A stretch of 64,000 nucleotides of DNA, taken from the IMG/VR virus record IMGVR_UViG_3300025659_000002, positions 99,946 through 163,945 of that record; one strand, 5' to 3'. This document shows positions 12,692-40,597 of the stretch, in pieces. Numbering within the stretch: the stretch's first letter is position 1; each line of letters begins with the position of its first letter. This stretch comes from a virus. Below the pieces are notes generated by a model, which was given only the letters and a program-made list of their open reading frames with translations, made no database searches and was not told the DNA's origin. A program made the position numbers and the translations under genes.

Positions 12692-12777
12692 TGTTTTCTT
12701 ATTTGGTTGATATTCTTTAATGTCTTAATCTAGTAACTTGCTTCCGTTGTGTGAAGACTGAATACCATCTTCTACAT

Positions 12778-12805: not shown

Positions 12806-12812
12806 CTTCTTA

Positions 12813-19638: not shown

Positions 19639-21773
<2,135 letters not shown>

Positions 21774-21789
21774 TAGTATTTATTGATTT

Positions 21790-22716
21790 TTATTTAAGCT
21801 GTTCATACACTTTCTTTATGCCCTCTTCCAGAGGTGTAAATTCGAATTCTGGAAATAAGGACATTAATTTAGAAGAGTCTATATCTTTTCTGTGCTGTCC
21901 ATTAGGCATTGAAGTATCATATCTAACTTCTAAATGTTCGGCATTAAGAGCTTTTAAAGCTATAACTACCATTTCATTTATACTTAAATTTTGATTTGGT
22001 GGGGCTATGTTTACATTTTCATATGTATCAGTATAGATCATTAGTTTTATAAGTCTTGCTAAATCTCCGGCATACATAAATTGTCTAAGAGGAGTACCAT
22101 CACCCATTAAGATTATAGTAGAATCTCCATTATCAAGAGCTTTCCTAATTTTAGTTAATAAAGCAGTTAAGAAATGACTTTTAGTTGGATCAGTTTTATC
22201 CCCATCTCCGTATAAATTACATGGAATAATATAATTATAATTAGTATTATATTGAGTATTATAGGCATCAATTTGTACCGCCATAGCTCTTTTAGCATAC
22301 GCGTAAGAGAAGTTAGTGGGTGTGGGAGGGCCATCATGTAGTTGTTCCTCAGCCATCGGATATACAGTAGCCTTGCCTGGAAAAATACAAGAACTTAGGA
22401 TTCCAACAAATCTTGGTGTTTTAGTTAGCATGGCATATCTAAGTAAATTAGTATTCATCAGAATATTGTCCGTATAGTATTCTGCAGGATGCTCAATGTT
22501 ATCTAAGATACCTCCAACTCTCGCGGCCAGGTGTATTATACATGCGGGTTTTAGATGATAAAACAACTTTCCTACATCATCTTCGCTTCGCAAGTCATAG
22601 TCATCGGACGACAGATACACAGCATTGGGCATAATTTCTTGCAAACAACTGCCCACTAGACCACTTCCACCGGTTACTACTGTTAGAGTTGACATATTAC
22701 TGTTAACCACACTCAT
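21790..22716 (-). CDS. colC: GDP-colitose synthase / GDP-fucose synthase family
   Basis: 308 aa SDR: VTGGSGLVG loop, HLAARVGGI, SSCIFPGK, FSYAYAKRAM (YxxxK), PCNLYGDGD, GDGTPLRQFMYAGDLA. These match the epimerase-reductase family containing Fcl and ColC. Because ColD precedes it, the likely substrate is GDP-4-keto-3,6-dideoxymannose, giving GDP-L-colitose. Fcl activity (GDP-fucose) remains possible, since the two differ little in sequence. A second start at 22695 is possible. Confidence 0.82.
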   Translation of the reverse strand: MSVVNSNMSTLTVVTGGSGLVGSCLQEIMPNAVYLSSDDYDLRSEDDVGKLFYHLKPACIIHLAARVGGILDNIEHPAEYYTDNILMNTNLLRYAMLTKTPRFVGILSSCIFPGKATVYPMAEEQLHDGPPTPTNFSYAYAKRAMAVQIDAYNTQYNTNYNYIIPCNLYGDGDKTDPTKSHFLTALLTKIRKALDNGDSTIILMGDGTPLRQFMYAGDLARLIKLMIYTDTYENVNIAPPNQNLSINEMVVIALKALNAEHLEVRYDTSMPNGQHRKDIDSSKLMSLFPEFEFTPLEEGIKKVYEQLK

Positions 22717-22719
22717 AAA

Positions 22720-23481
22720 TTATAGGCCAAATATTTTATACATAAACTTATCTTTTTCATAAATCTCCATTTTTAAAGCTGCAGGTATTTCATAGCAATC
22801 CACAGGCTTTCTATTACTTTTCTGAGGTTTTTCAGAAGCTTCGACTTTTTTCACACTTTTAGGGCCGTTAAAAGGGACGCCGTGTTGCACACATAAAGCC
22901 TTTAATTCCTCAGAAATATTTTTTTGATGTAAGATGTGGTAGTTGTTTTTTATCCACTCCAACTCTTCACATACTTCGTCATTAGATTTTAAATCAGTTA
23001 TTTTTTTAGACCCAAATTGATCTAGGAAACCAAAAGTATAATACCCTATTTTTAAACGTGTTAGCTCTTTAAAAACATGATAGTCATAAGTATGATGCTG
23101 TCTAGATAAAACATTTGCGTGTTGCAATAAGAATTTATTGTCAAACATATTCCCCAATATTTTAACTAATCCCAAATCTCCGCTTAAACTATGTTTTTCA
23201 GAAATATAACGATTAATATGCCCTTCATTTGGATCTAAGGGCTTTGCATGACTTTCCTTAATTTGGGCATACTTAGGATCTAAACATCAAAAGGTAATTA
23301 AAGAGATATAGTAGTCTAAAGGTTCTCTGACAATACAAACTTTTTGTTCATTAGAAATTAAGCCATTATTTTTACAAAAATGATAGTTTCTATGGTGTCC
23401 CAGAGTGTACCCTTTGGGTAAAACTCTATGCGCATAAGTTCCAGCTGTCTTTGGCTGATGAAATATTATGAATTCTGGCAT
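22720..23481 (-). CDS. Second sulfotransferase-like protein (TGA-recoded)
   Basis: 253 aa from ATG 23481 (MPEFIIFHQPKTAGTYAH). An ATG at 23496 is also open but overlaps the upstream gene more. TGA at 23287-23289 joins two fragments. The P-loop PKTAGT and VREPLDYYISLI match the 5'- and 3'-phosphate loops of HexNAc/chondroitin-type sulfotransferases. The C-terminal part is basic with a KPQKSNRKP stretch. It probably sulfates a glycan built by the neighbouring transferases. Confidence 0.72.
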
Positions 23482-24122
23482 AGTATTGTTAACCATTCCT
23501 TAGAGTAAACTTTGAATTGTGGATATTTTTTTCTGATAGTCTTTACTACTGTGTTGTTATCTTCAAGAAAACATACAAAAGTGTCAGATAAAAATGGAAT
23601 AGCATCCTCTAGTGTCTGTAAAATAGTTTCATCAGTGTGGTAGGCATCATCAACAAATATGTCTATAGTCCTACCCTTTAATATTTTTTCTAAATAATTA
23701 GAGTTAGATACAAACTGATCAAACTCAAATACTTCCGGTAATTTATTTGGAAAAGCTCCTAAATCTAACAAGGTTTGTAGATTATCTTCAAAGTAAGTTA
23801 AACTGATGTCTAAACCTATTACAGAGCCATTGGGGAATAAATCCCCCCAAAGAGCTAAACCGGAACCTTTTAAAATTCCAACCTCTACTATTGTAGGAGC
23901 CATGCTGGAATTAACAAAGGGTAGTAAATGTTGGGCATATTCCGAATTGTAGGCAGTTGGCAGCATTCTGTCGCCACCCTGCATACCTATTGTCGATAGG
24001 TATCGTTCCGATCTGGGGTCCCTTTCACTAACATGTTTTATGGGCACGTTTGTTATAAGGCCCCCATATTTTTTTTCAGTTGTTTCTAGAAATTCTTCTA
24101 GTTGTGGTATAGTGTAGCTCAT
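23466..24122 (-). CDS. Class I SAM-dependent methyltransferase
   Basis: 218 aa. The SAM motif is VEVGILKGSGLALWG with VIGLDIS ending the second strand; IDIFVDDAYH is the post-I/acidic motif (Methyltransf_24/CmcI-like, which often act on sugars). A clear AAGGAG ribosome site precedes the ATG at 24122. No in-frame TGA although its neighbours have them. O-methylation of a sugar is the likely role, inferred from context. Confidence 0.75.
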   Translation of the reverse strand: MSYTIPQLEEFLETTEKKYGGLITNVPIKHVSERDPRSERYLSTIGMQGGDRMLPTAYNSEYAQHLLPFVNSSMAPTIVEVGILKGSGLALWGDLFPNGSVIGLDISLTYFEDNLQTLLDLGAFPNKLPEVFEFDQFVSNSNYLEKILKGRTIDIFVDDAYHTDETILQTLEDAIPFLSDTFVCFLEDNNTVVKTIRKKYPQFKVYSKEWLTILCQNS

Positions 24123-24130
24123 GTAACTCC

Positions 24131-24910
24131 TTATAATTTAATACTTGTTTCTCAGTATAGATCTGATATGTTTCTATCCCGATTCGCAGGACCAAACCAG
24201 GTTGCTGGAAACACTACTTTCTTATCTTTATTTTTATTTAAGTAAGCCCCTCACCAGGAAAAACTCGAGTTAGCAATGATGTTATGACTACACCTAGATA
24301 AAATATTCATATCTATAAAGTCTTTCTCTCCTTCGATGTATACTGCGCTATCCCCGAACACAGATTTACACCAAGGAACGTCATCGCTCACAATGATTTT
24401 TTTAGTATTCTTAGGAAATAAATCTAAACCTTTAAAATAGTATTCAGGTGTTAAAGGTAAATGAAACTGTGGGGTTTCTAAATAATCCCCCCTTCTAACA
24501 TGAATTCCGATAGTTTCTTCTGTAAATAGATTTCCATACTTAGAAGTGATATATTCATTAGTTTCAGATGGCAATTCAAATAGATTTTTAATAAAAAGCT
24601 CGTTATGTTTAAAATACTTATCTGATTGAAAATAACCCGTTAGTATAGAATTGTTAGAACAATTTATTTTTTTAAAATGAAAATAAGGCTCCTTGTACTC
24701 ATTCACACAGGCACTTACATTGGCATGCGGTACTTTCCAAAAAATGGTATCTTTATACACATTTACACGATCATAGTAGTGAGTTCTACACTGTATAGGC
24801 TGATCTAAGTTAAATCCGTATTCTCAGTCATTGTCGATAGCTAAAGAAACTACATTTGCTATTTGAAATAGTAAGTTCCCCAAACCACCCATTAAGTTAG
24901 CTGTTAGCAT
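24131..24910 (-). CDS. GT11 alpha-1,2-fucosyl/colitosyltransferase (TGA-recoded)
   Basis: 259 aa with TGAs at codons 28, 220 and near the end. The N-terminus GGLGNLLFQIA and HVRRGD (137-142) are GT11 signatures. SSFSW-(TGA)-GAYLN falls on the conserved SSFSWWGA motif, so TGA sits exactly where the family has Trp. GT11 enzymes move L-fucose from GDP-fucose. E. coli O55 has a GT11 that moves colitose, which fits the GMD-ColD-ColC set nearby. It overlaps the upstream GT2 by 14 bases. Confidence 0.88.
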
Positions 24911-25601
24911 TGGCTGCTTTCCTTCTTTTGAAATTTTGTATCGCTCGGTTGGCATTGACAGCTGCTTGCAGAAAAGTGGCACCGTTTGAAGCAGACTCTG
25001 GCAAAATTCTATAGTTATATAAAATTGCGTCTACAAAGTAAGGAGTAGTAACTTCGCTAAGTTTATATACCAAATCCTTGTCTCCTCCAGGACTGAGTGT
25101 TAGGTCATATCCTAGACTTTCGTTATAAGTAGTTCTTCTAAATGTTTTTAAATGGCTAGGCGGACAATCGTAAATTGCCTCATGTTCCCCTAATTTTCGA
25201 CACCACCCCTCTTTAAGAGGTAGTAGGGTTTCATCACACAGCATAAAATTTGAATATACGAATCCACGCGCTCCTTTATCATACTCTTCTAGAATTTTTG
25301 CCGTAGCTTGCGGAAGCAGTGCATCGTCCGAGTCTAAAATACCGATAATGTCAGTTGGGGAGTTAGCAATCATATTTATCATAGTCTGCAAACTTCCTAG
25401 ATTTTTAGAATTTTGTACACAAATAAATTTATCATTATTAGCTACTAGGTTTTTTATAAATTCTGCGGAGCCATCAGTACTAGCATCGTCTGTTATAAAA
25501 GCGCATCACCGGTCACAGTCTTGTGCCATTAGCGACTCATATCAGTCTTCTAAATACTTTTCTTTATTATAATTTGGTGTTATGTAAGTTATATATTCCA
25601 T
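24897..25601 (-). CDS. GT2 family glycosyltransferase (TGA-recoded)
   Basis: 234 aa; two TGAs near the N-terminus (LEDWYES and CDRWCAF), so a standard caller starts only at 25391. GT-A motifs: YITPNYNKEKYLEDW opening, FITDDASTDGS for nucleotide binding, ILDSDDALLP as the DxD metal site, GGDKD later. It adds a sugar to a growing glycan. Tight spacing to its neighbours shows an operon. Confidence 0.82.
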
Positions 25602-25615
25602 GTAAAGATATGTCC

Positions 25616-26266
25616 TTATATTTCTGAGGGCTTTAATCCTCATTTTTCTGTAAAGTATTTGGTATTGTGTCCTATTATGTTCACAGAACGATCGCCGTTT
25701 GCATATAAATTGTTTCCGTGAGATGCTTGGGTCCCTACTTCTCCATTTTTTAATACATAGCTAGCATCTTGCAGCCTCTTCCCAAAGTCTATGTCTTCGT
25801 GTCCGTAATTTCCATCAAAATTTATGTCGAAAAGACCTATAGCATCTAACACTGTTTTTCTAATTCCTAAATTAGCGGTACTGAATCAACCATCGGCGGT
25901 CTGACCATTTCAAAATTTTATAATTCCTCTAGAAACATCGGCTGTTTTTAAAGTGTCTAAATGAGCTTGTATGAAGTTATTCGAAGTGGGTATACAATCA
26001 TCATCTAGCAAGATGATATAAGGAGAAACACACAAAGCAACAGACTCATTGAATCTAGCAACTCTGTGGTAGCCAGCATCCTCATTTCATATAAATTTTG
26101 TAATTATTGAGTAAGTTGCGGCATTGATAGGGTCACAGCTTCCGTCATCATTGATGATGAGATTAAAATTAGTGTTAGTTTGTTTCCCTAACATTTTTAA
26201 GGTTTTTAACAGTTCAACTGGCCTGTTATAAGTTGTGATGCAAATATCTATATCTTTCTTTTCCAT
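25616..26266 (-). CDS. GT2 family glycosyltransferase, galactosyl-type (TGA-recoded)
   Basis: 216 aa joined across four TGAs; only a 70-aa piece is open in the standard code. Opening DICITTYNRPVELLKTL, LIINDDGS, LLDDDCIP (DxD) and the C-terminal NYGHEDIDFGKRL (ED acid/base region) match GT2 enzymes of the chondroitin-synthase/galactosyltransferase type. Start ATG 26266 overlaps the AsnB stop region (TAATATG), so they are coupled. Confidence 0.82.
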
Positions 26267-26267
26267 A

Positions 26268-27590
26268 TTAAAAACCTATTTTCTCTTCAACTTCGAAGGG
26301 AAATTTATTAATTGTTAAGTAGTGATGCAGTACGCTTTTGTAATGCCTATTTTTCAATTCTTGAGAAATTCATAAAAATTCTTGAACCACTTTTTTATCT
26401 AAAAACGGGTATCTACTTTCAATACCATACGCACCTCCTACATACTCCTCTTTGGCCAAGTAAGACTCCATAGACGAGCCGTAAAAAGACGCTCAAGGAA
26501 ACACAGTATTCAAGTCTTTTGGAAACAGTCCTCCAAAATTGGAATGTGGGTATTTCGATTTCCCACCAAACCCGTAATCTGAAAACAATTCATCAGCACC
26601 AGCTCCGCTTATGTGAATTTTTAATCCAACGCTCTTTGCTTTTGCGCACAAATACGAGAATTGATTAGAACCGTTATCGTCTACAAGTTTTAAGTTGAAT
26701 TCGTTATAGCTGGATGAATCTGAGCGTATGGTGTACACGAAGCTGTCTGTATTACGTACTATAAATTGATGTGCCAAATCCAAATCCTCGGGACGCACTG
26801 TGTACTGATCGATGCGAGTTGTGTTTTTTAAAACATCATATCTTTCCGCTAAAATCTTTTTATTCTCGTGGCCAACGTGAGTATAGGCTTGAAAAGGTAC
26901 TTTTAGTTTGTGCATTTCACAAGCAATGGCACCGCTGTCATACCCACTAGATAGCCCTATAAAGATTTTTTCTCTGATGTTAGTTTTAGCACGTTTTTTA
27001 ATGCTTTCAGAAAAAGCGATCGCTCAATCGTCAAAATCAGTTTTATATTGGTCTAAATTAAACTCGAAATTAGCGAAGGATCTTAATAGTTGCTTCGTTT
27101 TTAAATCAAAAACAAAGGTTGTGTTTGCTGCACATTTTTTTATATCAGTAAATCCAAGCTTGTATAAAGGATCGGCGTAACTTGCTATTCCGATATCCTG
27201 CGAGTTAATTGAAAAAAATAGAGGTTTTGTTTTAAAGGTATCGGTACTAATAAGTAAGATTCTTTTATTAAAGTCTACTAACGCCAAAGCAAACTCCCCA
27301 TCTAGCAATTTTGTAAATTGCTCCCCATACTCCTTGTATAGTGGAATAAGACATTTTGTATCATTATCAAAGCCATCGAAATTATAAATTTCGCCGTTAA
27401 ACAATACAACGACGTCGTCTTCTAACAAAGGCTGCGAAGTTCAAGCCCCTGTTATACTGAGCAAATTGTGCAAAAAAGTTATGCCATTAATATTTTTAAT
27501 GTTTGTACTATCGGGCCCACGCAACTGGAGAAGTCTATTGATCTGTGGTAGATTTTCTACATCTTTTGTAGTTAGTAAAAAAGAACACAT
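26268..27590 (-). CDS. AsnB-type glutamine amidotransferase (TGA-recoded)
   Basis: 440 aa across four TGAs. The chain begins MCSF, with Cys2 ready as the Ntn nucleophile of class II glutaminases, then FNGEIYNFDGF. The synthetase domain has the PP-loop LSSGYDSG (S215-S219) and SGAGADELFSDYGFGG. ATP-dependent amide transfer from Gln is implied. In polysaccharide loci such proteins amidate uronic acids (WbpS type), more plausible here than asparagine synthesis. No TGA interrupts the catalytic motifs. Confidence 0.87.
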
Positions 27591-27591
27591 G

Positions 27592-28263
27592 CTATGACTT
27601 AGTCCTTATTTGTGGTATCAATTTGTTTTTGTGTAGCCCGCCATTGGCATATCCAGGCAAAGTACATATAGATACAGCTGTTTTTCACGCTACAAAGGGC
27701 AAACTTAGTTGGTCTCTGGAAGAATACTTACAAATTTGCTCTCACCAACGTAAATTCAATACTTTGATTTTATCAGTATTTTTGCGTATGAATGTTGGAA
27801 GTTCATACAGTCCATTATTCTTTGGGTAGCATTGGCTACGATAGTAGTCCATTTGTCTATGAATGTTTTCAGGTAAGTCATATTTTAATTTCAATAACTC
27901 AGAAGCTTCTTCATAAATACAAGTTCTATGGGTATGTTTAAATACTCCTAAATCTTTGTTATGTAAATACTGCTCACAAAATTCTAAAGGATTTTCAATT
28001 ACCTCATGGGTGGGATCGTGCCATATTCAATAATTATAATCTGGGAAAAATAAATGAGGCATTATCTTATAAATTTTAGCATTTCGTCTATTTCTATATA
28101 GAGAGTCTAAACTAAAATCAAGTGCTGGTAATTGAGTTCAGCCTTCACATTTTTGTGGTTTGTCTACAAAGGCAAAGTAATCTACATCTTTAAATATATT
28201 GTTAGGAGTATGTAGTTTAGCCACATTCCCACAAATAGCTGTTATAATTGCAACTTTAGTCAT
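27592..28263 (-). CDS. DUF616 / TOD1-MUCI70-like glycosyltransferase (TGA-recoded)
   Basis: 223 aa, invisible to a standard-code caller because of four TGAs. The core YKIMPHLFFPDYNYWIWHDPT (W before I is TGA) and the C-terminal LRWWEQICKYSSRDQLSLPFV match DUF616, a glycosyltransferase-like family common in polysaccharide loci. The ATG at 28263 overlaps the upstream GT2 end by eight bases; the stop is TAG, one base from the AsnB start. Confidence 0.75.
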
Positions 28264-28921
28264 GTATTTTTTTTACGTAATTTAATTCCTGTCTTATAGT
28301 TTCTGTAGCAATATTTTGTTGAACCTGACCTGACCAGAGTCTGTTTACTACTAAACAATCGTCTAAAATTTGAGGTAGGCCGAAGGTATCATATAATCGT
28401 TTATAATATTCTACATCCATTAAATATATCAAATTTTCATCGAAAAGTAAAGGTTTATAATTTCTTATAGCTAATACGCTTGGACTACTGATAGTATTGA
28501 CTCCGTGGTGAATATTAAGACCATATCGTGGAACCATTTTAGCTCCCGAGGTTGTCTTAGAGCCTGTTACAGCTCAAACTACCTCTGAAGTAAAAGTTTT
28601 ATAAATTTTTTCAAGTGAAGTATTTTTATATAAAAAGTCATCTTGAAATAAGATTTTTATTATATCTCCACTACAGCATTTAATGGCATTATTAATATTG
28701 GCAGAACTATTTCCACGATTTAGCTCATTTTTTATATATATAATATTTAAAGTATCTTTATACTTTTTACATAAAGCTTTTATGCTCTCATTAAGGCTAT
28801 GGTCTGATACTACTACTTCGAAATCCTTAAAGGACTGTTGTAAGAATATATTAAATTGGTATTCTAAAAATTCTACCCCTTTCCCTAACATTTCATAAGT
28901 AGGTATAGCTATTGATAACAT
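28256..28921 (-). CDS. GT2 family glycosyltransferase (TGA-recoded)
   Basis: 221 aa with one TGA at 28574-28576 (EVV-W-AVTGSK). Opening MLSIAIPTYEMLGKG, VVSDHS for nucleotide contact, LFQDDF as the DxD-like site and LMDVEYYKRL in the acceptor region identify GT2. A 75-bp gap (28922-28996) with no clear signal separates it from the next gene upstream. Confidence 0.8.
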
Positions 28922-28996
28922 TATATTAATTCCTTAATTCCATTGTTTCATAAGTGTGTTTTTCACGCAGCCTCCTATTAGTTGTATTTTATATAT

Positions 28997-29641
28997 TTAT
29001 ACACCTAAGCACTGAGAATAGTTTCTTTTCCCTTTTAGTATATCACTAAAACCCTCTTCTTGTCCACAAATTCTTGGATTAGCAAAATAAGTATTTAAAG
29101 TTGGCTGTAAGTTAGAATAATAATAGTTATCTATAGGAATATTTAACTGCTTTAACTCTTCTACGATTTTATGAAATACAAAATGTTGATCATTTAGTAG
29201 ATAAGAGTGTGTAGTTAACCCCCTACTCTTAGCTATATATTTTGAAACAGGTATTGCCGGTTCTAAAAAATTAGCTCCTAAATAAAATAAATCTCAATCC
29301 TCTGGTAATTCTGTACAAGTTTGTTTTAGTCTATCAAAAAAATTATTGCAAAATAATACATCATCTTCTAAGATCCATATAGTTTTATACCTATTTATAC
29401 TGGCATCTTCTATAACTTTTTGATGACTAGTAAGACATCCCCAAGCTCCTTTACAGGCCCCCTTCCAGTGAGAAGGTATAATTGTTAATGGGTCGTCAGC
29501 GTCTATAGCTTTAAAAATTTTTACAGTAGGCAAACTATCATTTGGTATACTAGCTCCCCATTTAGTTTTAAAAGAAATTAGTCTATCCGGTCGTTTATGT
29601 AAGTTAATACAATAAATGGCGTCTATGTCTGTCAATTTCAT
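28997..29641 (-). CDS. GT25 family glycosyltransferase, copy 1 (TGA-recoded)
   Basis: 214 aa. IDAIYCINLHKRPDRL is the GT25 opening, AWGCLTSHQKVI and ILEDDVLF the central motifs (DD metal site), then a C-terminal CGQEEGFSDI. The single TGA is at 29294-29296 (LPED-W-DLFYLG). It is a tandem duplicate of the next gene; in that copy the matching codon is TGG. GT25 enzymes are LPS/LOS galactosyltransferase relatives. Confidence 0.85.
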
Positions 29642-29643
29642 AA

Positions 29644-30294
29644 TTAAAAGCCAAGCTCACTTGTGTAGTTACATACCCTTCCTTGGATATCACTATAGCT
29701 ATTATTGTCCTGACCACATAATCTAGGTACACTAAAATATGTATTAAATCTTTTTTGTAAATCGGTCACGTAGTATAAGTCTATAGGATCTTTTGCTACG
29801 GGCAATTCCTTAATTATAGTTTGAAAAATATTATGTTGATTGTTTAAAAGGTAGGCGTGAGTAGTAAGGCCTACAGTCGTGGCAAGATGTTGTGATACAC
29901 GTTCAAGCGGTTCTTGTGGGTTATAGCCTAAGTATAGTCAGTCCCAATCCTCTGGTAATTCATCTAATACTATTGCTAATTTATTAGAAAAATCAGCATC
30001 AAAAGTAACGTCATCTTCTAAAATCATAATAGTTGTTTCATTGGAGGTTACAGCCTCTCTAATAACTTTTAAGTGACTTAGAGTACAAGCATAAGCCCCA
30101 GGCAGGCCCCTTCAGCCTGCCGGGAATGCTTGAGATTGACTACGAGCGTCTACCGCTTCGAGAATCTGTAAGGAGGGTATGTCAACGTTTGTGGTAAAAG
30201 CATTTTTGAATCTTTCTTCAAAAAGTGTTAATCTATCTGGTCTGCGTTTTAAGTTTATACAGTAAATTTTGTCTACAATGTTATTTAATTGCAT
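29644..30294 (-). CDS. GT25 family glycosyltransferase, copy 2 (TGA-recoded)
   Basis: 216 aa. VDKIYCINLKRRPDRL, YACTLSHLKVI, ILEDDVTF and LCGQDNNSYSDI align with copy 1 along the whole length. TGAs at 30112-30114 (PAG-W-RG) and 29938-29940 (DWD-W-LYLG). The first aligns with a TGG in copy 1 (PSHWKG). It ends TAA two bases before copy 1 begins. Confidence 0.85.
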
Positions 30295-31230
30295 CTAAAT
30301 TAACTCCTCTAGAAAATTGTTAAACACTTGTTGCTGTTCTTCAAAATTTATAATTTCTCGTATTTTGACTGCAGCGTTATGTTGTAAATTATGTCTATAA
30401 GTTTCGTCAGTTAAGTATCTATCTAATTTAGATTTAAACTCAGCAGTAGACTCAAGAATAATACTTGTTTCATCAGTAATCCATCGTTCCATAGTCTTGC
30501 CCCTAACGAAGGGTTTAAAAGCTATTATAGGTCTTCCTGTAGCTAAACTTTGAATTGTAGCAAACCCATAACCCTCTTTTTCTTTAATATGCATAGTAGC
30601 TATTTCTTCCTTGAAACTGTCGTACAAGTTAGGGCCACTTATGTATCCATTAGGCTCCCCAACTCCATATCTTCTAAAATCTAAATTTGGAAATTGGGCC
30701 GTACATTGAGAATACAAAGCTAAAGAGTGTGCCCAAAATTCCCCATAACTATTAATATAGCTATTTAGAACAGTAAGGGATTCTTCTGGAGCTTCTTGGA
30801 ATACTTCATAGTCTACAGGGAGTAGTATATGTGAAGAATGCACACCTTGTAATTTTCCAACCTGATAGGCATGTAAATTAGCTGATAGTACGTTCTTAAA
30901 ATAATTAAAATTTATTACTCCAGTATGGTATTCATTTCCATAATAAGAGATGTATTTTACAGAGGAGCCTTTCTTATTTATAATATTATTAATAACATCA
31001 TTCTGCTGCTCAAAACAAGGGTTAATAACTGCGTCAATTATATCAGTATCTAAAAATTCTTGATAACTAATAGTAACTCTATTTTTAGTAGACGCAGTAT
31101 ATTTTAAACCGTATTTTATAACCGGTACCCAACTTTGATCTAAAAAATAAATATTATGATCAGTGTTTTTACTTAAAAGAAAAAATGCTTCATCTACATC
31201 TGGGTGCATGGAAGGTAGTAATATATTCAT
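30295..31230 (-). CDS. GT-B (GT4-like) glycosyltransferase
   Basis: 311 aa from ATG 31230, overlapping the upstream stop (TAATG); the longer start at 31251 is less likely. The C-terminal EKEGYGFATIQSLATGRPIIAF is the GT4 nucleotide-sugar motif (E-x7-E variant), with a preceding YSQCTAQFPNLDFRRYG. No TGA despite several Trp, unlike the next four genes in the operon. Confidence 0.78.
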   Translation of the reverse strand: MNILLPSMHPDVDEAFFLLSKNTDHNIYFLDQSWVPVIKYGLKYTASTKNRVTISYQEFLDTDIIDAVINPCFEQQNDVINNIINKKGSSVKYISYYGNEYHTGVINFNYFKNVLSANLHAYQVGKLQGVHSSHILLPVDYEVFQEAPEESLTVLNSYINSYGEFWAHSLALYSQCTAQFPNLDFRRYGVGEPNGYISGPNLYDSFKEEIATMHIKEKEGYGFATIQSLATGRPIIAFKPFVRGKTMERWITDETSIILESTAEFKSKLDRYLTDETYRHNLQHNAAVKIREIINFEEQQQVFNNFLEELI

Positions 31231-32837
31231 TAATTTAGTAATGAGTACCAAGAAGCTTTTATATTAGCTTTATCTACCTGTTGTTTTAAAATAGGAATAG
31301 CCTTCTGGGCTTCTTCTTTCCAATACCCATAATTCTTTTTTACTTCTTTTATTTGTGCAATTGCTTGACCCATGTCTGGATTATATTGCATACCTATAGA
31401 CCCTACGTCATCAGGCCTTCCTGAATAGTAAGCATCGCTAAAGTCACCACTTTCTACCCATAAAATTCCTGGAATATCTTTTAAATCTAAATGAGCAGTG
31501 TTTTTACTTAGTATCACAGGTATTCCTTGTAAAAGGGCTTGCCTAGGCGTAATACTATAACTCTCTCCAGCTGATAGAAATACATAGCAATTTAGTAATT
31601 CCCACCAGGATTGGTATTCTTCGTTATCTAATGTTTTATGTTGAAGAATAATATTATTGGGTTCTTGGGCAATGTGTTCCTTTAATTGGTTCATCATAAC
31701 TGGAGTATTTACAAATCTTCTGGAATGAAGTTTCAAATAGTCATTTTCAGTTTTACAAGCATTAAAAGCATCAATTATATTATCTACTTTTTTCCTATCC
31801 CAAAACCCACCTGAATACCCATATACAAATTTATTGGGTTCTGGATTATTAATAAAGTTTGGAAAGGAAGCTATATGTTCTACTTTATATATTTCAGTTT
31901 CTGGGTATTCTTCTTTTAAACAGTCAGTTAGCCATGAATTTGTAACTACGATATTATCAAAAGTAGGTATTATATCTTTTAAAGTAGAAACTCCAGTGTT
32001 TTCCCACATTAAATACCAGTAAGTATTTGCGTCGTAAGTGTTTTTAATCCAGGAAGTTAAATTATTATTATATTCAATAATATTAGATTCCAGGTCAATT
32101 CCTGATACGTGTACAAATTTACAATTTTTGTAATCAAGTGGCTGTCTAATATGAGCATTTTCATATTTTTTATATAATTTAAGCCATTTAAAATCTTGTT
32201 CATGTTTTTTTAAAGTAGTAGGCATAAAATTAGTTAAAGTGCTTAAAAATATAAAATTTCTATGTAAGCGATCTAGTGGTCGATTGAAAGAAATATGTTT
32301 AAAATCTTTAAATACATGTTTATATAGATTACATAGGTGTGCCCCCAATCCATCTTCTTTGTAATGAAATCCGTGAAGAATAACTGATTTATCAACCTCT
32401 CCTGTAGGTTCTAATTCTTCACAACTAATAGTTCCCAAATAAGCATCTATGTCGAAGACTTTCTTTTTAATGATTAGATTGGTTATATCTAATTTTTCAA
32501 AAGTAGATTTGTTGCCCGACACAGCCGCCATGAGCCCTGAAGGTTTTTTTAAATCATTAGGGTTGGACGGACTAATTGTACATTGTATAGGACCGGTGAA
32601 GTTAGTGCCTTGGTAAAAATTAGTTACTACGTTACAGGTATGTTTATTATTATTTGCTTTTATTATAGTTTTACATTGCAGAGAATTAACTAAAAGATTT
32701 TCCCATAAAAAATTTAAGTATACTTCAATATCTACAGTAGTATTATACTCAATTTCTATAGAATAAATACTACCGGCTTTAAAATCTTTTACGTTTTTTA
32801 ACCACCAAGTTTTATAAGTTCCTAAATCTTGTATCAT
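31230..32837 (-). CDS. Two-domain GT4-like glycosyltransferase
   Basis: 535 aa. The first 150 residues are a beta-rich domain of unknown role (GSIYSIEIEYNTTVDIEVYL). The remainder is GT-B: YGYSGGFWDRKKVDNIIDAF opening the nucleotide domain and SAGESYSITPRQALLQGIPVI as the donor motif. About 14 Trp, all TGG. It is the first gene of the glycan operon after a hairpin, so the promoter is probably just upstream. Confidence 0.78.
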   Translation of the reverse strand: MIQDLGTYKTWWLKNVKDFKAGSIYSIEIEYNTTVDIEVYLNFLWENLLVNSLQCKTIIKANNNKHTCNVVTNFYQGTNFTGPIQCTISPSNPNDLKKPSGLMAAVSGNKSTFEKLDITNLIIKKKVFDIDAYLGTISCEELEPTGEVDKSVILHGFHYKEDGLGAHLCNLYKHVFKDFKHISFNRPLDRLHRNFIFLSTLTNFMPTTLKKHEQDFKWLKLYKKYENAHIRQPLDYKNCKFVHVSGIDLESNIIEYNNNLTSWIKNTYDANTYWYLMWENTGVSTLKDIIPTFDNIVVTNSWLTDCLKEEYPETEIYKVEHIASFPNFINNPEPNKFVYGYSGGFWDRKKVDNIIDAFNACKTENDYLKLHSRRFVNTPVMMNQLKEHIAQEPNNIILQHKTLDNEEYQSWWELLNCYVFLSAGESYSITPRQALLQGIPVILSKNTAHLDLKDIPGILWVESGDFSDAYYSGRPDDVGSIGMQYNPDMGQAIAQIKEVKKNYGYWKEEAQKAIPILKQQVDKANIKASWYSLLN

Positions 32838-32858
32838 TTTTAAATTTGATTTAAGTAA

Positions 32859-32883
32859 AGGCGCCGGCTATTAACCAGCGCCT
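32859..32883 (-). terminator. Hairpin between replication and glycan operons
   Basis: Arms 32859-32867 and 32875-32883 pair GGCGC/GCGCC and GG/CC around one C-A mismatch, with a 7-base loop. On the - strand only a short TTT follows, so it is a weak terminator or a processing/attenuation site. It marks the boundary between the DUF669 gene and the first glycosyltransferase. Confidence 0.5.
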
Positions 32884-32893
32884 ATAATACTTA

Positions 32894-33313
32894 TTAGTCA
32901 AAAAGACCGCCTTCTTCTTCTTCAGCAGCTTCAGCTGACTGATATTGAGAAAGTATATTTTTGTGACCACCTTTGCCATTACTACCGATATCAGCATATA
33001 CTGATACAGTTTTTCCTCGAATAGCGCCGACTATATCTTCTACTTCTACGCTTTCTGATATAACGTCTGCTTTATCTACAGCTCTTAATAGATTTATTAC
33101 AAAAGGAAGAGCCTTTTCTGTCATAGTAAAGGTATTCCACGCTTTCCTATTTTTGTGTTCTCCGTCTGCTACTGTAAATGTCACATTAATTGTTTCATTG
33201 TTATTTGAGGACTTTCCAACTTTTATGTCACCTATAGTGCATGTGTATCTTCCTTCTGGAAGAGGGTCGAAAGTTCCTGACTTATCTGCGGATTTTTGTA
33301 AATTATATCCCAT
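32894..33313 (-). CDS. DUF669-like ssDNA-binding protein
   Basis: 139 aa. FDPLPEGRYTCTIGDIKVGK and ETINVTFTVADGEHKNRKAW fit the DUF669 beta-barrel found next to phage recombinases. The tail is acidic, EEEEGGLFD. The same GLFD end occurs in the 12275-12691 protein. Probable role: coat ssDNA and load the Sak4-like ATPase encoded directly upstream. ATG overlaps that gene by 11 bases. Confidence 0.75.
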   Translation of the reverse strand: MGYNLQKSADKSGTFDPLPEGRYTCTIGDIKVGKSSNNNETINVTFTVADGEHKNRKAWNTFTMTEKALPFVINLLRAVDKADVISESVEVEDIVGAIRGKTVSVYADIGSNGKGGHKNILSQYQSAEAAEEEEGGLFD

Positions 33314-34244
33314 CTGTGTTGTCTTTGGTTAGATCATTTATTAATAAAATTGCTTCGTCTTCTTTAAGATCCAGCACACTGTTTACGCTGTAGTCTGTTG
33401 CTAAACGTTTTTTGGTAGCTTTTTCCCCTACTTTTTTAGTTATTTTTTCTAAGGCCATTAGGGTACCGGCCTGAACACCCGCAGTTTTTAAAGCTTTACC
33501 TTTAAATTTAATTTCTGCATGTCTTCCGACGGTGTCTTCTAATGCTTGTTGCTGGTTAAAAACAACTGGCTCTCTTTCTAAAGTCTCGTTACCTAGATAT
33601 TTTGTAAAAGATGCGTATGAGAATTCAAAAGGTTTGTCTTTTGGTAAACGGTTAGTTCTATCTTTTTCTACAATAGCCATATGTTTTGTACCTTCATTAT
33701 ATAATTCTATAACGACGTCAAACATGAAAGGCATATCTTTTGGTACATCAGGCTGCGTCCCAATAACTTTCATAAAATCTCCATCTTCAGAGGAGTATAA
33801 AGTTTTAGATTTAGCAGTTACAATAATATTCATGTCTAAAGCTAGCATCTTATTTACCATGTATTTTACTTCAGCTTTTATGTGTCTGTAGTCTAAAGGT
33901 TGTAGTACATAATCGCTTTTACCATTTTTGATAGCCATTTTTTTAGTAAAACCTAATATTATTTGATCATAAATATTAGTAAAAGGATCTACTACTAACG
34001 TCTTTCTATCCCGAGGGTCCTCTAATAATTCATCAATAGCTTTTTTTACCATTGTTGGATTAGCTGTCTTAATCCTCTCGAAATCAAAAAATTCTCCATA
34101 GTACTCCGTTCCTTTTTCTGCGTCTATTACCGCACAATTTGGAAAATGTAATGAAGCTACAGATTTACCAGTTCCGGTTGCTCCATAAATAAGCATTTTT
34201 AAACGTGTTGCCTGTTTTTCGGCAGGTTCAAATAGTGAACTCAT
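33303..34244 (-). CDS. Sak4-like RecA-fold ATPase (AAA_24)
   Basis: 313 aa. Walker A GATGTGKS (about residues 21-28) and Walker B TLVVDPFT. The LDMNIIVTAKS strand and VVIELYNEGTKHMAIVEKDRTN complete the AAA_24 core. Such proteins act as single-strand annealing or strand-exchange factors in phages, usually with a DUF669 partner as here. Function inferred from family and pairing. Confidence 0.83.
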   Translation of the reverse strand: MSSLFEPAEKQATRLKMLIYGATGTGKSVASLHFPNCAVIDAEKGTEYYGEFFDFERIKTANPTMVKKAIDELLEDPRDRKTLVVDPFTNIYDQIILGFTKKMAIKNGKSDYVLQPLDYRHIKAEVKYMVNKMLALDMNIIVTAKSKTLYSSEDGDFMKVIGTQPDVPKDMPFMFDVVIELYNEGTKHMAIVEKDRTNRLPKDKPFEFSYASFTKYLGNETLEREPVVFNQQQALEDTVGRHAEIKFKGKALKTAGVQAGTLMALEKITKKVGEKATKKRLATDYSVNSVLDLKEDEAILLINDLTKDNTDGI

Positions 34245-34256
34245 TCTTTGTATTGG

Positions 34257-34898
34257 TTATTTTGTGTATCTACGAACAATATCATAGGCTTTATAAGTAG
34301 CTTCAACGTCTCTTAAACAATAATCTTTTATTGCTTCTATTCTTCCAGCTTTAAAAGCTGTGTATACGTCTTTAGCTGCTATATCGCCTTCCTTAGGAGA
34401 AGGTATTCCTAAGAAGTCACAAGCTAATCTTAATGTGGGAGCCGCGTATCTGTCGTAGTCAGAAATATGGTTCATTACATCAAAATGTGGGTGCTTTTGA
34501 AATCGTCTAGTATCTGTGAAATCTTTGGAAGTTGGAAGGATTTTATGCATCATTGAGCGTTTTACAATGAAAGGTACATCGAACCCTAACCCATTATATG
34601 ACACGTAAAGGCCATAATAATGATTCTTAACTATATTCCAGAACTTTATTAGGATTTCTTTTTCTTCTCCTATTAGGCCTAGTTTTTCGAACTGGCCCTT
34701 GTCGTTTGTCTTCATTAAACCAATACAAATAATTTCTCCAAAATAAGGGCTTGTCGCCATTACGCGATTCTTTAGTTCCTCTGGAGATTCGTCCGATTCT
34801 TTTTGTCTGTTTATTTTCTTTTGAAGCTCTTCCTCTGCTATCTCTGATAGCTTAGTTTGTTGAGGAATAGTTTCAATATCTAAGGTCAATGTGTCCAT
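34257..34898 (-). CDS. DnaQ/PolB-type 3'-5' exonuclease
   Basis: 213 aa. LTLDIET holds the first catalytic D and E, YNGLGFDVPFI the second motif, and DYCLRDVEATYKAY the third (DEDD family, PolB-exo2-like). It is a stand-alone exonuclease; PolA in this phage already has a proofreading domain, so a recombination or repair job is likely. Confidence 0.83.
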   Translation of the reverse strand: MDTLTLDIETIPQQTKLSEIAEEELQKKINRQKESDESPEELKNRVMATSPYFGEIICIGLMKTNDKGQFEKLGLIGEEKEILIKFWNIVKNHYYGLYVSYNGLGFDVPFIVKRSMMHKILPTSKDFTDTRRFQKHPHFDVMNHISDYDRYAAPTLRLACDFLGIPSPKEGDIAAKDVYTAFKAGRIEAIKDYCLRDVEATYKAYDIVRRYTK

Positions 34899-34942
34899 AG
34901 TTTTTATGGTTAGTTCTATATATTAATATAACCATGATTTGC

Positions 34943-35692
34943 TTATAAAAGCAATGGTTCTTTTGTAGGTGCTATACGAAATAAATCTTTATGTTCTGGA
35001 AATCGTGTGTTAGCTTCACTTAACAATAATTCCTCATTGTTAGTTTTGCTAGACAGGTGTCCAAACATAAGCCATTCTACTGAGTCCAAGTCAAGATCCT
35101 CATCAATAAAGTCTAATACTTGGGCGTTACTTAGATGTCCGTAAGGACCGTCTATTCTGCCTTTTAGTATTATGTCATATTCATGGTGACCCCATAAGGT
35201 TTCGGTATCATAGTCCGCTTCAAGTAAATACGCGTCACACCCTTTTAAGGAGTGCCTTATCAGTCTTGTAAAACTTCCAGTGTCGGTTAGATACCCAAAT
35301 TTCTTACCATTAGATAAGTCTTCAATTACATATCCCACACTATCAGCTACATCGTGTTTAGTACTAAAACTAGTTATTTTCAAATCTTCTAGAGTGGTAC
35401 TTGTGCCAGCTTCGTGATAAATTACATCACATTTATTAAATGAGGCTTGCTTTTCCATAAAACATCTTTCTGGAAGATATATTGATTTACCAGTTTTTCT
35501 ACCAAAAACTCCAGCACCAGATATGTGGTCTCCGTGCTCATGGGTTATGAATACAGCCTCTGGCTCAACATCTCCCATAGCTTCTTTTAAGCGTTTGTAA
35601 CTTACTCCTAAATCTATAAGTATACTAATCTTATCAGTACTAATTAAACACGAATTTCCAGAACTACTGCTAAATAGAGAGTGTATTCTCAT
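34943..35692 (-). CDS. Metallo-beta-lactamase fold hydrolase (YycJ-like)
   Basis: 249 aa. FSSSSGNSCLI opening and the zinc ligands HEHGDH, TKHD, TDTG, and terminal GHLSS give the MBL signature of the YycJ/WalJ group, linked to nucleic-acid processing. Substrate unproven. It lies between the primase-helicase and exonuclease genes, supporting a DNA-related role. Confidence 0.82.
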   Translation of the reverse strand: MRIHSLFSSSSGNSCLISTDKISILIDLGVSYKRLKEAMGDVEPEAVFITHEHGDHISGAGVFGRKTGKSIYLPERCFMEKQASFNKCDVIYHEAGTSTTLEDLKITSFSTKHDVADSVGYVIEDLSNGKKFGYLTDTGSFTRLIRHSLKGCDAYLLEADYDTETLWGHHEYDIILKGRIDGPYGHLSNAQVLDFIDEDLDLDSVEWLMFGHLSSKTNNEELLLSEANTRFPEHKDLFRIAPTKEPLLL

Positions 35693-35704
35693 AATAGTAT
35701 TTGG

Positions 35705-38449
35705 TTAATCTGTGGTAGTCAAAATTCCAGGCTTTACTCTTACTACCCTAACAGAAGCTTTATTAAATTTTCTGATTTGCAGTTTGCTATCATAAATTTT
35801 ATCTTCTTCATATAGCTCCGTTAATATTGCCTTTTGGCTATGATCTAAGCTGCTACCTGCGGACCTTAAGGACCGTGATACCTCATTATAAGCTAGTGCA
35901 AATATAATACTGGGGGTAGGTTCGCTAGATCCTTTTATTGTACTCCAAAACCCTACTATAGGGGCTGGAGATTGATCTACATCCATAATGCTGTCGGCTT
36001 GTAATCTTAGCCTTCCGCTTGAAATAAGTTCATTAAGTATTTTTAGAAATCTATCAGACGCTAACTCAGCTGCTGCTTCTGTTACTAAGCTTTGAACTTT
36101 TTCTTTTAAATGCTCAAATAGTCTCTCTTGAAAATCTTTAGCTTTTCTTCTAGACCATAAAAATTCAGATAAATATTTATAACTAGTACTGAGTAGGGCT
36201 ACATTTCTAGAAATTCTAATATCATTAGATTGCCCTTCTACAATTGCATAGTATGTGCGTAAAAAATCGTCATAAGTTTTTTCTAATAATACTGGGTTTT
36301 GATTTAAAATATGGTGTATATACCTTGCGGTAAATCCTGGATAGTATTTACTTACTCCTTGAATCTTTTTCCCTAAATCTAAATCTCGTTCGTAAGTTCC
36401 ATCAAGATTTACCATAAACATACGGGATAAGTTAGAAGCTTCCCCTGCTGGGGTGTCTTCTCCGCTGAACATAATCCAACCTCTTATTACATAAGTTTTA
36501 GCTATTCCTAAAGAAGCGTTCATTCTAGATCTTGTAGTATTATCTGCAAAATTTTGCATTAATCCTAAAGCAGCATTATAAGCGCTTGTAGTAGCCATGT
36601 TCTTTTGTTTAAAATCATCAATTGCAAATATTGCATCTTTAAAAAAGTAACCAATTCTTCCAATACTATTTGCAGTGGATCTCCATGAAGCTACAGTTTT
36701 GAAATTTCCATATAAAGTTTGTAACATATTAACAAAGTAAGATTTACCCCTACCTGTCTGGCCTCTAACAAAGAATAGGTATCTTGTTTCATCACTGCCT
36801 AAAAACGGAAAAATGATAGGCAAATAGGCATGACCTATAGCTGTATGGGATACTTCAAAACTAGAAAGGCGAATTAGATCTTCTCCAATACTTTCTCTAG
36901 CTATTTCAAATTCTTCATCACTAAGCATACACATGTCTAAATCACATGAAAATTGCTCATCTGCTAAACTAATGATGATTTCATCGTTTTCTCGTACACC
37001 ATCTTTATCAATTAAAACAGAAGGGGTTCTATAAACTTTAGGGTACAAGTCTCCTTTCGGAATATTGTTGTATCCAAATTGTTTTAATACGGTGATGTCT
37101 TTTGCTTCTGAGTATTTTTGAACTGCGTGTTGTATTGTAATAATATTATCCATGAGTAATTGGTTTGGTCCTAAAACGGCGGTTACATAGGCTCTAAATT
37201 CATTAGGGTTAGAGTAATCTTCAGCTGTCATACAGAATTTTTCCTCTCTATTTTCATTTATTATATCACCACTAAGTAAGGTTTTTTCATGTAAACCATC
37301 CGCCACTCTTTTTACTTCGTTTAAATTAACTATAAAGCTAGATATTTGCCTAGTACTTGGGGCTTGATCTTTCTTAGCAGGCATTCTCTCATAATAAGCT
37401 GTGCCTGATTGAAATACAAAACTTAATTTACTAGTCGAGTTATCTTCTGCTAGGTTTTCTCCTTTGGCCCAATGGTAGAAGGCTATAGGGCTGTTTGCAG
37501 TTCCTATCTCTTTACATTGAAATTCACAAACATTGTTGTATTTTGAGCTTTGAAGTTTTTTACAGGTGATTGGTAAATAGCCCTTTTGTTTATCAGCTCT
37601 TACTTTATCCCGCATTTTCTTCAAGTGATACTCGGTAGTTTTTGCATCATAATGATGAAGTTTAGACAGAAATTCTTTTACAAAATATTCTTCTGCATCC
37701 TCTCCCGCATTGATAAATAGATATCCAAAAACTTCTCTTAAGTAATTTGGACAGGTTTTTTGAGTTAAACAATTATCCCATGAATTTTTTAAAGCCCTAC
37801 ATCTATTTACTATTTGTAAAAAAGAAGTGTCTGGAGTACTAAACTGTTCCAGTTTAGCGTATTTCATGGTATCTAAGTTTAATTCGTCTATAAATTTACT
37901 GAATTTTTTAGATTTATGGTGGAAGCCATTAGGTCCTTTTACTAAATTTCCCATATCTTCCATAGTTGGGAGGTCGGATTGTTTAGGAAAAATTTCCCAT
38001 TCAATACTTTCATGAACCTTATCTAGGCTACTAAAGATATTTTCTAAGCCTTCTTTAACAGCTCCTGCGTCAACTGGATGCTCGAAAAACATCCATACGT
38101 GGTAGCCTTTATGCCCCGAATGTTCAATATAAGATGGTATTTCAAATTTAGATAATAGGGCTTGTGCGGCCTGGGCTTGTTCCCAAAGCACTTCTTCCCA
38201 TTCATCTAATTTAAAATCTGGAGAATTCCAAACATCTTTAATTACATCTATATCTAATACTGCCCATTTTATTGTGTTCTCAATTGGTATCAATTGGTAT
38301 AGGCCTACTGTCTGCTCCCCTTTTAAATGCGCATTTATTATCTCGTCGTCTATTTCTTCTTTAACCGGAAAATACATACCCTTAGGGGATTGTACGGAAT
38401 ATATGTCAGCCCGATGAACAAATAATTGTTTAAATACTTTTAAATCCAT
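35705..38449 (-). CDS. AEP-type primase fused to a P-loop helicase/ATPase
   Basis: 914 aa. The N-terminal part (to about residue 200) shows WAVLDIDV (catalytic DxD), IEHSGHKGYHVWMFF and LVKGPNGFHH, as in TOTE-type archaeo-eukaryotic primases. A Cys-rich region follows (CRALKNSWDNC, CPNYL, CKKLQ...CEFQC), possibly an Fe-S or zinc module. The C-terminal ATPase has RGQTGRGKS (Walker A) and IFAIDDFKQ (Walker B). It is the candidate replicative primase-helicase. At least ten Trp, all TGG. Confidence 0.83.
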   Translation of the reverse strand: MDLKVFKQLFVHRADIYSVQSPKGMYFPVKEEIDDEIINAHLKGEQTVGLYQLIPIENTIKWAVLDIDVIKDVWNSPDFKLDEWEEVLWEQAQAAQALLSKFEIPSYIEHSGHKGYHVWMFFEHPVDAGAVKEGLENIFSSLDKVHESIEWEIFPKQSDLPTMEDMGNLVKGPNGFHHKSKKFSKFIDELNLDTMKYAKLEQFSTPDTSFLQIVNRCRALKNSWDNCLTQKTCPNYLREVFGYLFINAGEDAEEYFVKEFLSKLHHYDAKTTEYHLKKMRDKVRADKQKGYLPITCKKLQSSKYNNVCEFQCKEIGTANSPIAFYHWAKGENLAEDNSTSKLSFVFQSGTAYYERMPAKKDQAPSTRQISSFIVNLNEVKRVADGLHEKTLLSGDIINENREEKFCMTAEDYSNPNEFRAYVTAVLGPNQLLMDNIITIQHAVQKYSEAKDITVLKQFGYNNIPKGDLYPKVYRTPSVLIDKDGVRENDEIIISLADEQFSCDLDMCMLSDEEFEIARESIGEDLIRLSSFEVSHTAIGHAYLPIIFPFLGSDETRYLFFVRGQTGRGKSYFVNMLQTLYGNFKTVASWRSTANSIGRIGYFFKDAIFAIDDFKQKNMATTSAYNAALGLMQNFADNTTRSRMNASLGIAKTYVIRGWIMFSGEDTPAGEASNLSRMFMVNLDGTYERDLDLGKKIQGVSKYYPGFTARYIHHILNQNPVLLEKTYDDFLRTYYAIVEGQSNDIRISRNVALLSTSYKYLSEFLWSRRKAKDFQERLFEHLKEKVQSLVTEAAAELASDRFLKILNELISSGRLRLQADSIMDVDQSPAPIVGFWSTIKGSSEPTPSIIFALAYNEVSRSLRSAGSSLDHSQKAILTELYEEDKIYDSKLQIRKFNKASVRVVRVKPGILTTTD

Positions 38450-38461
38450 ATAATGGTATGA

Positions 38462-39946: not shown

Positions 39947-40311
39947 TAATAAGCTTCCTCTTCATATAAATGACCATCTTTATCTGATAGCATCTCGGTC
40001 CAGCGAGATGTTGGTCCAAATATAAATGACTTATGTTTAAATCTATGGTAATCGCAAGAACACCAAGCAGAGGTTTTCTGAAGAGGGGGTTTAAATTTCG
40101 TATCGGCATCTACAGCCTTAGAATATTTTCTTTTTAACTGAATATCCGGCACGGTACACCAACCATTTCTAAACATTGTACTTCTATAAAAGAAGAATCT
40201 ACAAGTAAAACAGCAAGCCGTAATTCGAAAATTCGGCCTTTTTAAATCGTTTTCTAATAGTTCTTCTGTGTCTGTTGTAAAATTATAGGTTGGTTCATAA
40301 TCTTGTGTCAT
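39946..40311 (-). CDS. Unknown 121-aa Cys-rich protein
   Basis: 121 aa, basic and aromatic. Cysteines cluster as CCFTCRFFF, WCTVP and WCSCDYH, suggesting a zinc-binding fold. It precedes the CCA enzyme with a start-stop overlap, so a role with RNA or DNA processing is possible but not shown. Confidence 0.5.
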   Translation of the reverse strand: MTQDYEPTYNFTTDTEELLENDLKRPNFRITACCFTCRFFFYRSTMFRNGWCTVPDIQLKRKYSKAVDADTKFKPPLQKTSAWCSCDYHRFKHKSFIFGPTSRWTEMLSDKDGHLYEEEAY

Positions 40312-40363
40312 ATATTATTTTGGTTTAACTATTAAATATATAGCTAAATTTTGTTAACTCCAA

Positions 40364-40597
40364 TTAAAATTTTGGAGAAAAATTAGTTGCCCCGTCGACA
40401 AAAAGAGTTCCATCCTCTCTAGCTGTTGCCCACTCCTCTGGAGTAGTAGGGCGTACTGTAAGAATTCCAGAACAGGAAACTATATATTCTTGAGGCTGTA
40501 TATAACATTTTGCTAATACTTCTCTACGTTCTCTTAATTGTTCTGGGGTCATATTTGCCTCAAGTTCGCTTGCTGTTAAATTACGAGATTTGTCCAT
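40364..40597 (-). CDS. Unknown 77-aa protein
   Basis: 77 aa: a helical charged N-terminus (LEANMTPEQLRERREVLAKC) then short strands (YIVSCSGILTV). Overlaps the previous gene by 17 bases. Not recognised. Confidence 0.45.
   Translation of the reverse strand: MDKSRNLTASELEANMTPEQLRERREVLAKCYIQPQEYIVSCSGILTVRPTTPEEWATAREDGTLFVDGATNFSPKF

Follow-up and report, generated by a model that had tools for sequence, protein, structure and literature searches.

In-frame TGA at tryptophan sites of a tandem GT25 gene pair in a large phage, and a UCA tRNA with a second, CCA-bearing arm as its putative decoder

Introduction

Two adjacent GT25 glycosyltransferase genes on a 64,000-base stretch of viral DNA (the window) carry TGA codons in frame, and at two sites one copy has TGA where the other has TGG. 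This raises the questions of what TGA encodes here, in which parts of the genome it does so and which tRNA would read it. Phages in which UGA is read as Trp (code 4) have been described among crAss-like phages (Yutin 2021, PMC7886860), for the Zeta phage Lera (PMC12386605) and by Borges et al. 2022, and the restriction of recoding mainly to late genes is known from such phages (Yutin 2021, PMC7886860). Of the 73 phages that one survey predicted to use code 4, only 11 had a recognised opal suppressor (PMC11210395), and Yutin et al. suggested that divergent suppressors go undetected (PMC7886860). Table 1 of PMC9976931 gives C34, C35, A36, G73 and A1-U72 as the bacterial Trp identity set. A change of the anticodon to UCA costs tRNA-Trp C34, a base recognised by TrpRS, so that it has to be asked how a suppressor stays charged in a standard-code host.

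Results

Layout of the phage genome

The window forms the final 64 kb of the 163,945-base IMG/VR 'virus' record IMGVR_UViG_3300025659_000002 (G000). It encodes a DNA polymerase, ribonucleotide reductase, primase, helicase, tRNA nucleotidyltransferase and baseplate-wedge protein, while terminase, head protease and major head protein are encoded in G000 outside the window. The source is a large tailed phage of about 214 kb, as estimated from joined coordinates. Its terminase is only 26–28% identical to the nearest named ones (Salmonella phage Arash, Vibrio phage D181). The longest near-identical contig, IMGVR_UViG_3300025602_000002 (G001; 205,518 bases), matched G000 with 99.999% identity over 90.6 kb and 100% over 65.3 kb, and contributes about 49.6 kb that G000 lacks. 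The window is laid out as follows:

4192–19636, minus strand: replication module (DNA polymerase, ribonucleotide reductase and others), no internal TGA
7172–7175, minus strand: ATGA, in which the TGA that would terminate one replication gene shares bases with the ATG of the following one (from the sequence)
19639–30294, minus strand: glycan module, 22 internal TGA in 13 ORFs, TGA read as Trp
30295–42667, minus strand: replication module (helicase, primase, tRNA nucleotidyltransferase, glycosyltransferase), no internal TGA
43578–63606, plus strand: late genes, including baseplate-wedge and tail-fibre matches, in-frame TGA abundant

The glycan module comprises two GT25, three GT2 and one GT11 gene together with TOD1/MUCI70-like, asparagine-synthase-like and aminotransferase genes. 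The phage's own tRNA nucleotidyltransferase is of the CCA-adding type (phrog_2244; 38462–39946, minus strand). ARAGORN called a tmRNA with the tag peptide GRPAVKLAA at 96897–97268 of G001 (minus strand). At 33590–33661 of G000 (minus strand; L004:13590–13661), ARAGORN at default settings missed a tRNA that Rfam scores well (58.7 bits); its anticodon is AUU and its acceptor stem is weak.

TGA and TGG at paired sites of the GT25 copies

The gene pair and its relevant codons are:

28997–29641, minus strand: GT25 copy 1, 214 aa, one in-frame TGA; PF01755, 44.8 bits (cut-off 24)
29294–29296, minus strand: TGA, W116 of copy 1, a conserved family Trp (masked homologue columns)
29465–29467, minus strand: TGG, W59 of copy 1; the alignment sets it against W61 of copy 2
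29644–30294, minus strand: GT25 copy 2, 216 aa, two in-frame TGA; PF01755, 54 bits (cut-off 24)
29938–29940, minus strand: TGA, W119 of copy 2, the third TGA of the pair, facing Leu118 (TTA) of copy 1 in a hydrophobic column (M/L/F/I)
29944–29946, minus strand: TGG, W117 of copy 2, the homologous counterpart of W116 in copy 1 (W in 64/69 homologues)
30112–30114, minus strand: TGA, W61 of copy 2, family column unconserved (alignment)

Both copies passed the curated cut-off of PF01755, with matches spanning positions 2–121 of the 199-position profile, and their nearest homologues come from other uncultured phages. With TGA read as Trp both frames are open end to end, whereas translation table 11 breaks both. 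The pairwise alignment (216 columns, 100 identical, 46%; E 2e-63) placed W116 opposite W117 and W61 opposite W59. Thus, the two reciprocal swaps of TGA and TGG that the sequence-only reading had pointed out do lie at homologous columns. By a crude estimate, random placement would give both matches with a chance of about 2e-4. Two sister contigs (L015, L016) carry identical versions of both genes, so the TGA codons are not assembly errors of a single record.

For the homologue columns, 91 of 93 fetched loci were used, the two sister contigs being left out, and TGA was masked as X. The column of W116 held Trp in 62 of 69 distinct GT25 homologues. The column of W59/W61 was gappy and unconserved, and Trp was not preferred there. 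The swaps had been put forward as internal proof that TGA means Trp. This meaning holds for the GT25 genes, but the swaps by themselves are insufficient to establish it: at W116/W117 the assignment is borne out by a Trp that is family-wide, while at W59/W61 it is drawn from the pair itself.

It had further been proposed that codons flipped after the duplication. In a tree of 71 sequences the copies grouped as sisters (support 0.967; 1.25 substitutions per site), which makes the idea plausible; for sister copies, the simplest reading is that each site changed its codon once after they had split. However, every change may have run in one direction, from TGG to TGA, and Trp may have arisen convergently at the second site; nor is the split of the copies datable to this phage. 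The GT25 swap is a correct, modest case of a known recoding phenomenon.

Residues encoded by TGA

Mean BLOSUM62 scores over the 17 TGA columns with homologues were best for Trp (2.0), followed by Tyr (1.1) and Phe (0.98). The residue order was the same in 52 TGG columns (Trp 1.75, Tyr 0.59, Phe 0.34). TGA at W244 of GT11 faced W in 24 of 25 homologues and that at W238 of the terminase in 2 of 2. The remaining TGA columns were variable, some without any Trp among the homologues, and none of the columns with many homologues held a conserved non-Trp residue. This pattern supports the reading of TGA as Trp in the late genes and the glycan module. The late genes include one for a 1301-aa protein with collagen triple-helix repeats and 15 in-frame TGA (L051:4953–8858).

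An amber (CUA) tRNA is present in the early tRNA array (G001 105393–105469, minus strand; L053:5393–5469). Additional recoding of UAG was considered and rejected: genes ending in TAG and in TAA could be extended in frame by the same length, with medians of 10 and 10 codons, and TAG still looks like a normal stop. The same oddity of a CUA tRNA was reported for Lera (PMC12386605). The gene at 30295–31251 (minus strand) ends in TAG, and the in-frame ATG of GT25 copy 2 comes immediately after it; readthrough of this amber codon would fuse the upstream gene to copy 2 and add 216 codons.

Recoded and non-recoded compartments

The late plus-strand genes contained 132 internal TGA in 53 ORFs and the glycan module 22 in 13 ORFs. 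By comparison, none was found in the 29 replication ORFs and 8 in the 99 early minus-strand ORFs, where they fell within 7 ORFs. ORFs were chosen mechanically (at least 90 aa, greedy choice), and the 8 early TGA were counted as called. The ratio of internal TGA to TGG was 154:143 in late and glycan ORFs against 8:405 in early and replication ORFs (Fisher, 1e-60; this set left out 24 unassigned ORFs with 37 internal TGA, three fibre-region ORFs with 6 TGA, and the 7 post-tRNA ORFs and 4 minus-strand ORFs at 76–82 kb with 0 TGA).

TGA confined to the last 15 codons was found in 12 of 128 early and replication ORFs and in 0 of 66 late and glycan ORFs (p 0.009), which is consistent with TGA as a stop in the former. 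To judge from the sequence, the TGA at 7172–7175 looks like a real stop. The statement that TGA means Trp is therefore to be confined to part of the genome, with early and replication genes, some of them apparently ending in TGA, set apart. The GT25 pair sits in the recoded glycan module, on a strand that is otherwise free of TGA, and simply shows random choice between TGA and TGG within a recoded compartment.

A UCA tRNA gene in the lysis cassette

No UCA tRNA was found in G000, where a tRNA-Trp(CCA), standing alone at the divide between early and late genes, is the sole Trp tRNA. G001 carries a single UCA tRNA at 70650–70746, on the late strand, in the part that G000 lacks and about 5.3 kb beyond the end of the window; all its other ARAGORN-called tRNAs are on the minus strand. 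The gene lies in a lysis cassette, flanked by GTA_holin_3TM (L051:10006–10413) and Amidase_2 (L051:10781–11353) genes, which encode Trp by TGG only and are free of TGA. This is in contrast to the usual enrichment of TGA; in Lera, for instance, TGA was reported in the holin and in three of four lysins (PMC12386605). A late promoter for the tRNA block was sought and rejected, as 6 promoter-like sites were found against 5.3 expected, i.e., chance level. Searches of G000 and G001 for RF-1-domain, TrpRS/TyrRS-type and SelA genes gave no match.

In the acceptor, anticodon and T arms, the UCA tRNA agreed with the phage's tRNA-Trp(CCA) at 42 of 51 positions; the 26 other comparable tRNAs shared at most 33. 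It has G73, G2-C71, G3-C70 and A9. Compared with the bacterial tRNA-Trp identity elements, G73 is present, the 1-72 pair is G-U instead of A1-U72, and at C34 C35 A36 the first arm offers UCA and the second CCA. The molecule has 7 acceptor and 5 T pairs, a 6-bp D stem and a long variable arm with a U-CCA-A loop. It scored 48.5 bits with Rfam tRNA-Sec (RF01852; threshold 47) and 34.1 as an ordinary tRNA, although the extended acceptor/T stack of tRNA-Sec is not present (7 + 5), nor is SelA.

The second arm of this phage is among the poorer versions, with 3 of 5 pairs around a 7-nt loop or 5 of 5 around an 8-nt loop, and the minimum-energy fold of the single sequence lacks it. Because this arm is imperfect, the general claim of a two-arm tRNA rests on the family.

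A second CCA arm in UCA tRNAs of other phages

Two scans of 2.9 million viral contigs were run without requiring the loop motif, one of them restricted to a CGGT/ACCG anticodon stem. Among the matches listed, the U-CCA-A motif was present in 24 of 24 distinct Trp-like long-arm UCA tRNAs and in 0 of 12 Sec-like ones (Fisher, 8e-10); all 9 short-arm UCA tRNAs lacked it. A scan requiring the motif (89 stretches), taken together with earlier scans, yielded at least 45 distinct two-arm tRNAs. Of the long-arm tRNAs counted in loci L162 and above, 35 carried the CCA arm, every one of them with UCA and G73, and the others did not.

In the 45 tRNAs, the second arm is a covarying stem of about 5 bp with a 7-nt NUCCAAN loop, located four bases before the T stem. 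The loop retains U33, CCA, A37 and mostly A38. Stem positions paired in 202 of 225 cases (90%) in the register of the 7-nt loop, compared with 22–44% at shifts of 1–3, and 38 distinct stems occurred. The linker to the T stem measures 4 nt in 36 tRNAs, 3 in 7 and 5 in 2, which is the length of an ordinary variable loop. G73 was found in 45 of 45, with an A-U pair at 1-72 in 39 and G-U in 6. From a MAFFT alignment, RNAalifold recovered three second-arm pairs unprompted, for which 24, 10 and 5 sequences had changed on both sides. With the structure supplied, the helix was 83.6% paired, loops shifted by one base being kept in and counted as unpaired. A covariance model (R1, 16 loci) ranked the UCA tRNA first, but also matched ordinary tRNAs and was excluded as evidence.

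In locus L195, the second arm (CCGGT-CTCCAAA-ACCGG) is identical to the anticodon arm of this phage's tRNA-Trp(CCA). When this phage's UCA tRNA and a rumen-type one were compared with 50,697 phage records by BLASTN, no record covered 80% of either; only the 3' half matched, from near or within the CCA arm, and the annotated matches among those listed were tRNA-Trp genes. In another phage (L172, near 290–382), an ordinary tRNA-Trp(CCA) apparently adjoins a two-arm UCA/CCA tRNA, an adjacency consistent with an origin of the two-arm tRNA by local duplication. The second arm is neither strictly required nor universal, since a phage at locus L198 has an ordinary short-arm tRNA-Trp(UCA). No amber two-arm tRNA was present among the matches listed; the one candidate (L396) looked like an ordinary tRNA in the wrong register. 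The two-arm anatomy is well supported by sequence comparison, and a role in recognition by TrpRS is what we infer from it. In a literature search that did not cover Borges et al. 2022, no published tRNA with two anticodon arms was found.

UGA recoding in other carriers of two-arm tRNAs

In 40 other two-arm loci, the majority residue that other phages have at 240 TGA sites was W at 78, F at 22, Y at 20 and S at 15, after exclusion of 53 of 293 sites that faced solely stops or gaps. The coding gain of TGA over TAG exceeded 0.05 in 33 of 51 two-arm loci (4 kb or more); of the loci that carry other UCA tRNAs, 4 of 11 passed this value (Mann-Whitney, p 0.007). For two other phage contigs, a search for close relatives in GenBank gave no match.

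Discussion

TGA stands at conserved Trp sites, the genome falls into two compartments, a UCA tRNA gene is present, and its second arm belongs to a class with comparative pairing. Taken as a whole, the explanation that UGA is read as Trp in late and glycan genes by a UCA tRNA with a second CCA arm is considered probable. The UCA tRNA would be expressed late, and its UCA arm would decode UGA. The CCA arm would have been copied from the anticodon arm of tRNA-Trp, and the two-arm tRNA would have arisen by tandem duplication of that arm; the copy may restore the C34-C35-A36 needed by the host TrpRS, acting either in the same or in an alternative fold. In the latter, the CCA arm would act as the anticodon arm, the UCA arm being an insert, which is possible because the CCA arm lies at the normal variable-loop distance from the T stem. 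Such a fold switch would account for charging and decoding by one tRNA. The more general proposition, that UGA-recoding phages have repeatedly used a two-headed tRNA whose UCA arm decodes and whose CCA arm is read by the host TrpRS, may hold or fail with about equal probability.

If the host itself used code 4, no suppressor would be needed, and the TGA-free genes would be recent or conserved; the low G+C content of the genome and the absence of a UCA tRNA from the window's own record would fit. However, avoidance of TGA follows module and strand and not gene age, and ORFs ending in TGA are found among early and replication genes (12 of 128, against 0 of 66 recoded ones; p 0.009). Mainly on these two grounds the explanation was rejected and is regarded as unlikely; in addition, a UCA tRNA gene is present on the sister contig. 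It is still less probable that the UCA tRNA carries selenocysteine or serine, even though it scores above the tRNA-Sec threshold, has a 6-bp D stem and combines a long arm with G73, which are listed as SerRS determinants in PMC9976931. The residues in the TGA columns, Trp and not Cys or Ser, and the acceptor features (7 + 5 geometry, U72 and not C72) led to its rejection; moreover, the closest relative of the tRNA is the phage's tRNA-Trp, and neither G000 nor G001 has SelA. Reading of UGA by the ordinary tRNA-Trp(CCA), in the manner of Hirsh-type or 4-bp-stem tRNAs, would agree with its place as sole Trp tRNA of the window's record, alone at the early/late divide. The Hirsh-type tRNA-Trp reportedly carries a G24A change. 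The D stem and the 5-bp anticodon stem of the phage tRNA look normal, however, and a cognate UCA tRNA exists, so this decoder was rejected for want of anything unusual in its stems and is held to be very improbable. As for the notion that the GT25 TGA codons are nonsense mutations in decaying genes, the broken frames under table 11 would be expected; it is contradicted by the homologue columns, where TGA falls at conserved Trp sites, by the 154 internal TGA that intact frames of late and glycan genes contain and by identical codons in sister contigs, and its probability is practically nil.

A different question is whether the second CCA arm is real and serves something else, as a nuclease decoy, as a handle for an A37-modifying enzyme or as a structural relic of its origin. 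A U33-CCA-A37 loop could also be read by anticodon nucleases or A37-modifying enzymes, the loop keeps U33, CCA, A37 and mostly A38, and an arm may be copied without any adaptive benefit. A relic would be expected to decay, but the stem covaries through 38 distinct versions while the CCA loop stays, although conservation of the loop is partly set by the search pattern except in the two motif-free scans. Among the long-arm tRNAs examined, the arm is moreover confined to those with UCA and G73 (35 of 35), which also speaks against another role. Such a role is accordingly thought possible but doubtful, and charging by the host TrpRS is retained as the preferred reading.

The phage resembles other code-4 recoded phages in having TGA at Trp sites, mostly in late genes, a UCA suppressor tRNA and a large genome with many tRNAs. 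It differs in that recoding also spans a glycan module inside the replication strand, which includes tandem sister copies of GT25, in that the holin and amidase genes on either side of the suppressor tRNA are free of TGA, and in the second anticodon-like arm of this tRNA; an RF1 or TrpRS gene, reported for some code-4 phages, was not found in G000 or G001. The tRNA-Trp(UCA) of code-4 bacteria and mitochondria has a single anticodon arm, and its variable loop is short. With it the phage tRNA shares the UCA anticodon and Trp acceptor identity, but the phage tRNA has a CCA arm after the UCA arm. The UCA anticodon, long variable arm and 6-bp D stem are shared with tRNA-Sec (RF01852), from which the 7 + 5 stack, the Trp-like acceptor, the U-CCA-A loop and the lack of SelA set it apart. 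An alternative route to UGA as Trp is a tRNA-Trp(CCA) with a 4-bp anticodon stem (PMC13092985); there the stem length is altered, whereas here a cognate UCA arm stands beside the CCA arm.

What is new here is the second-arm variant of a phage suppressor tRNA, and its role towards TrpRS is the boldest live reading. If true, the second CCA arm would offer a natural solution to the problem of charging and would constitute a new tRNA architecture. It would also offer a practical fix for the annotation of suppressors in code-4 phages, and a two-arm design could help to charge suppressor tRNAs in genetic code expansion. For the phages themselves, decoding and charging would be separated within one molecule, which may account for the many UGA-recoded phages that seemingly lack a suppressor or carry an apparent 'tRNA-Sec'.
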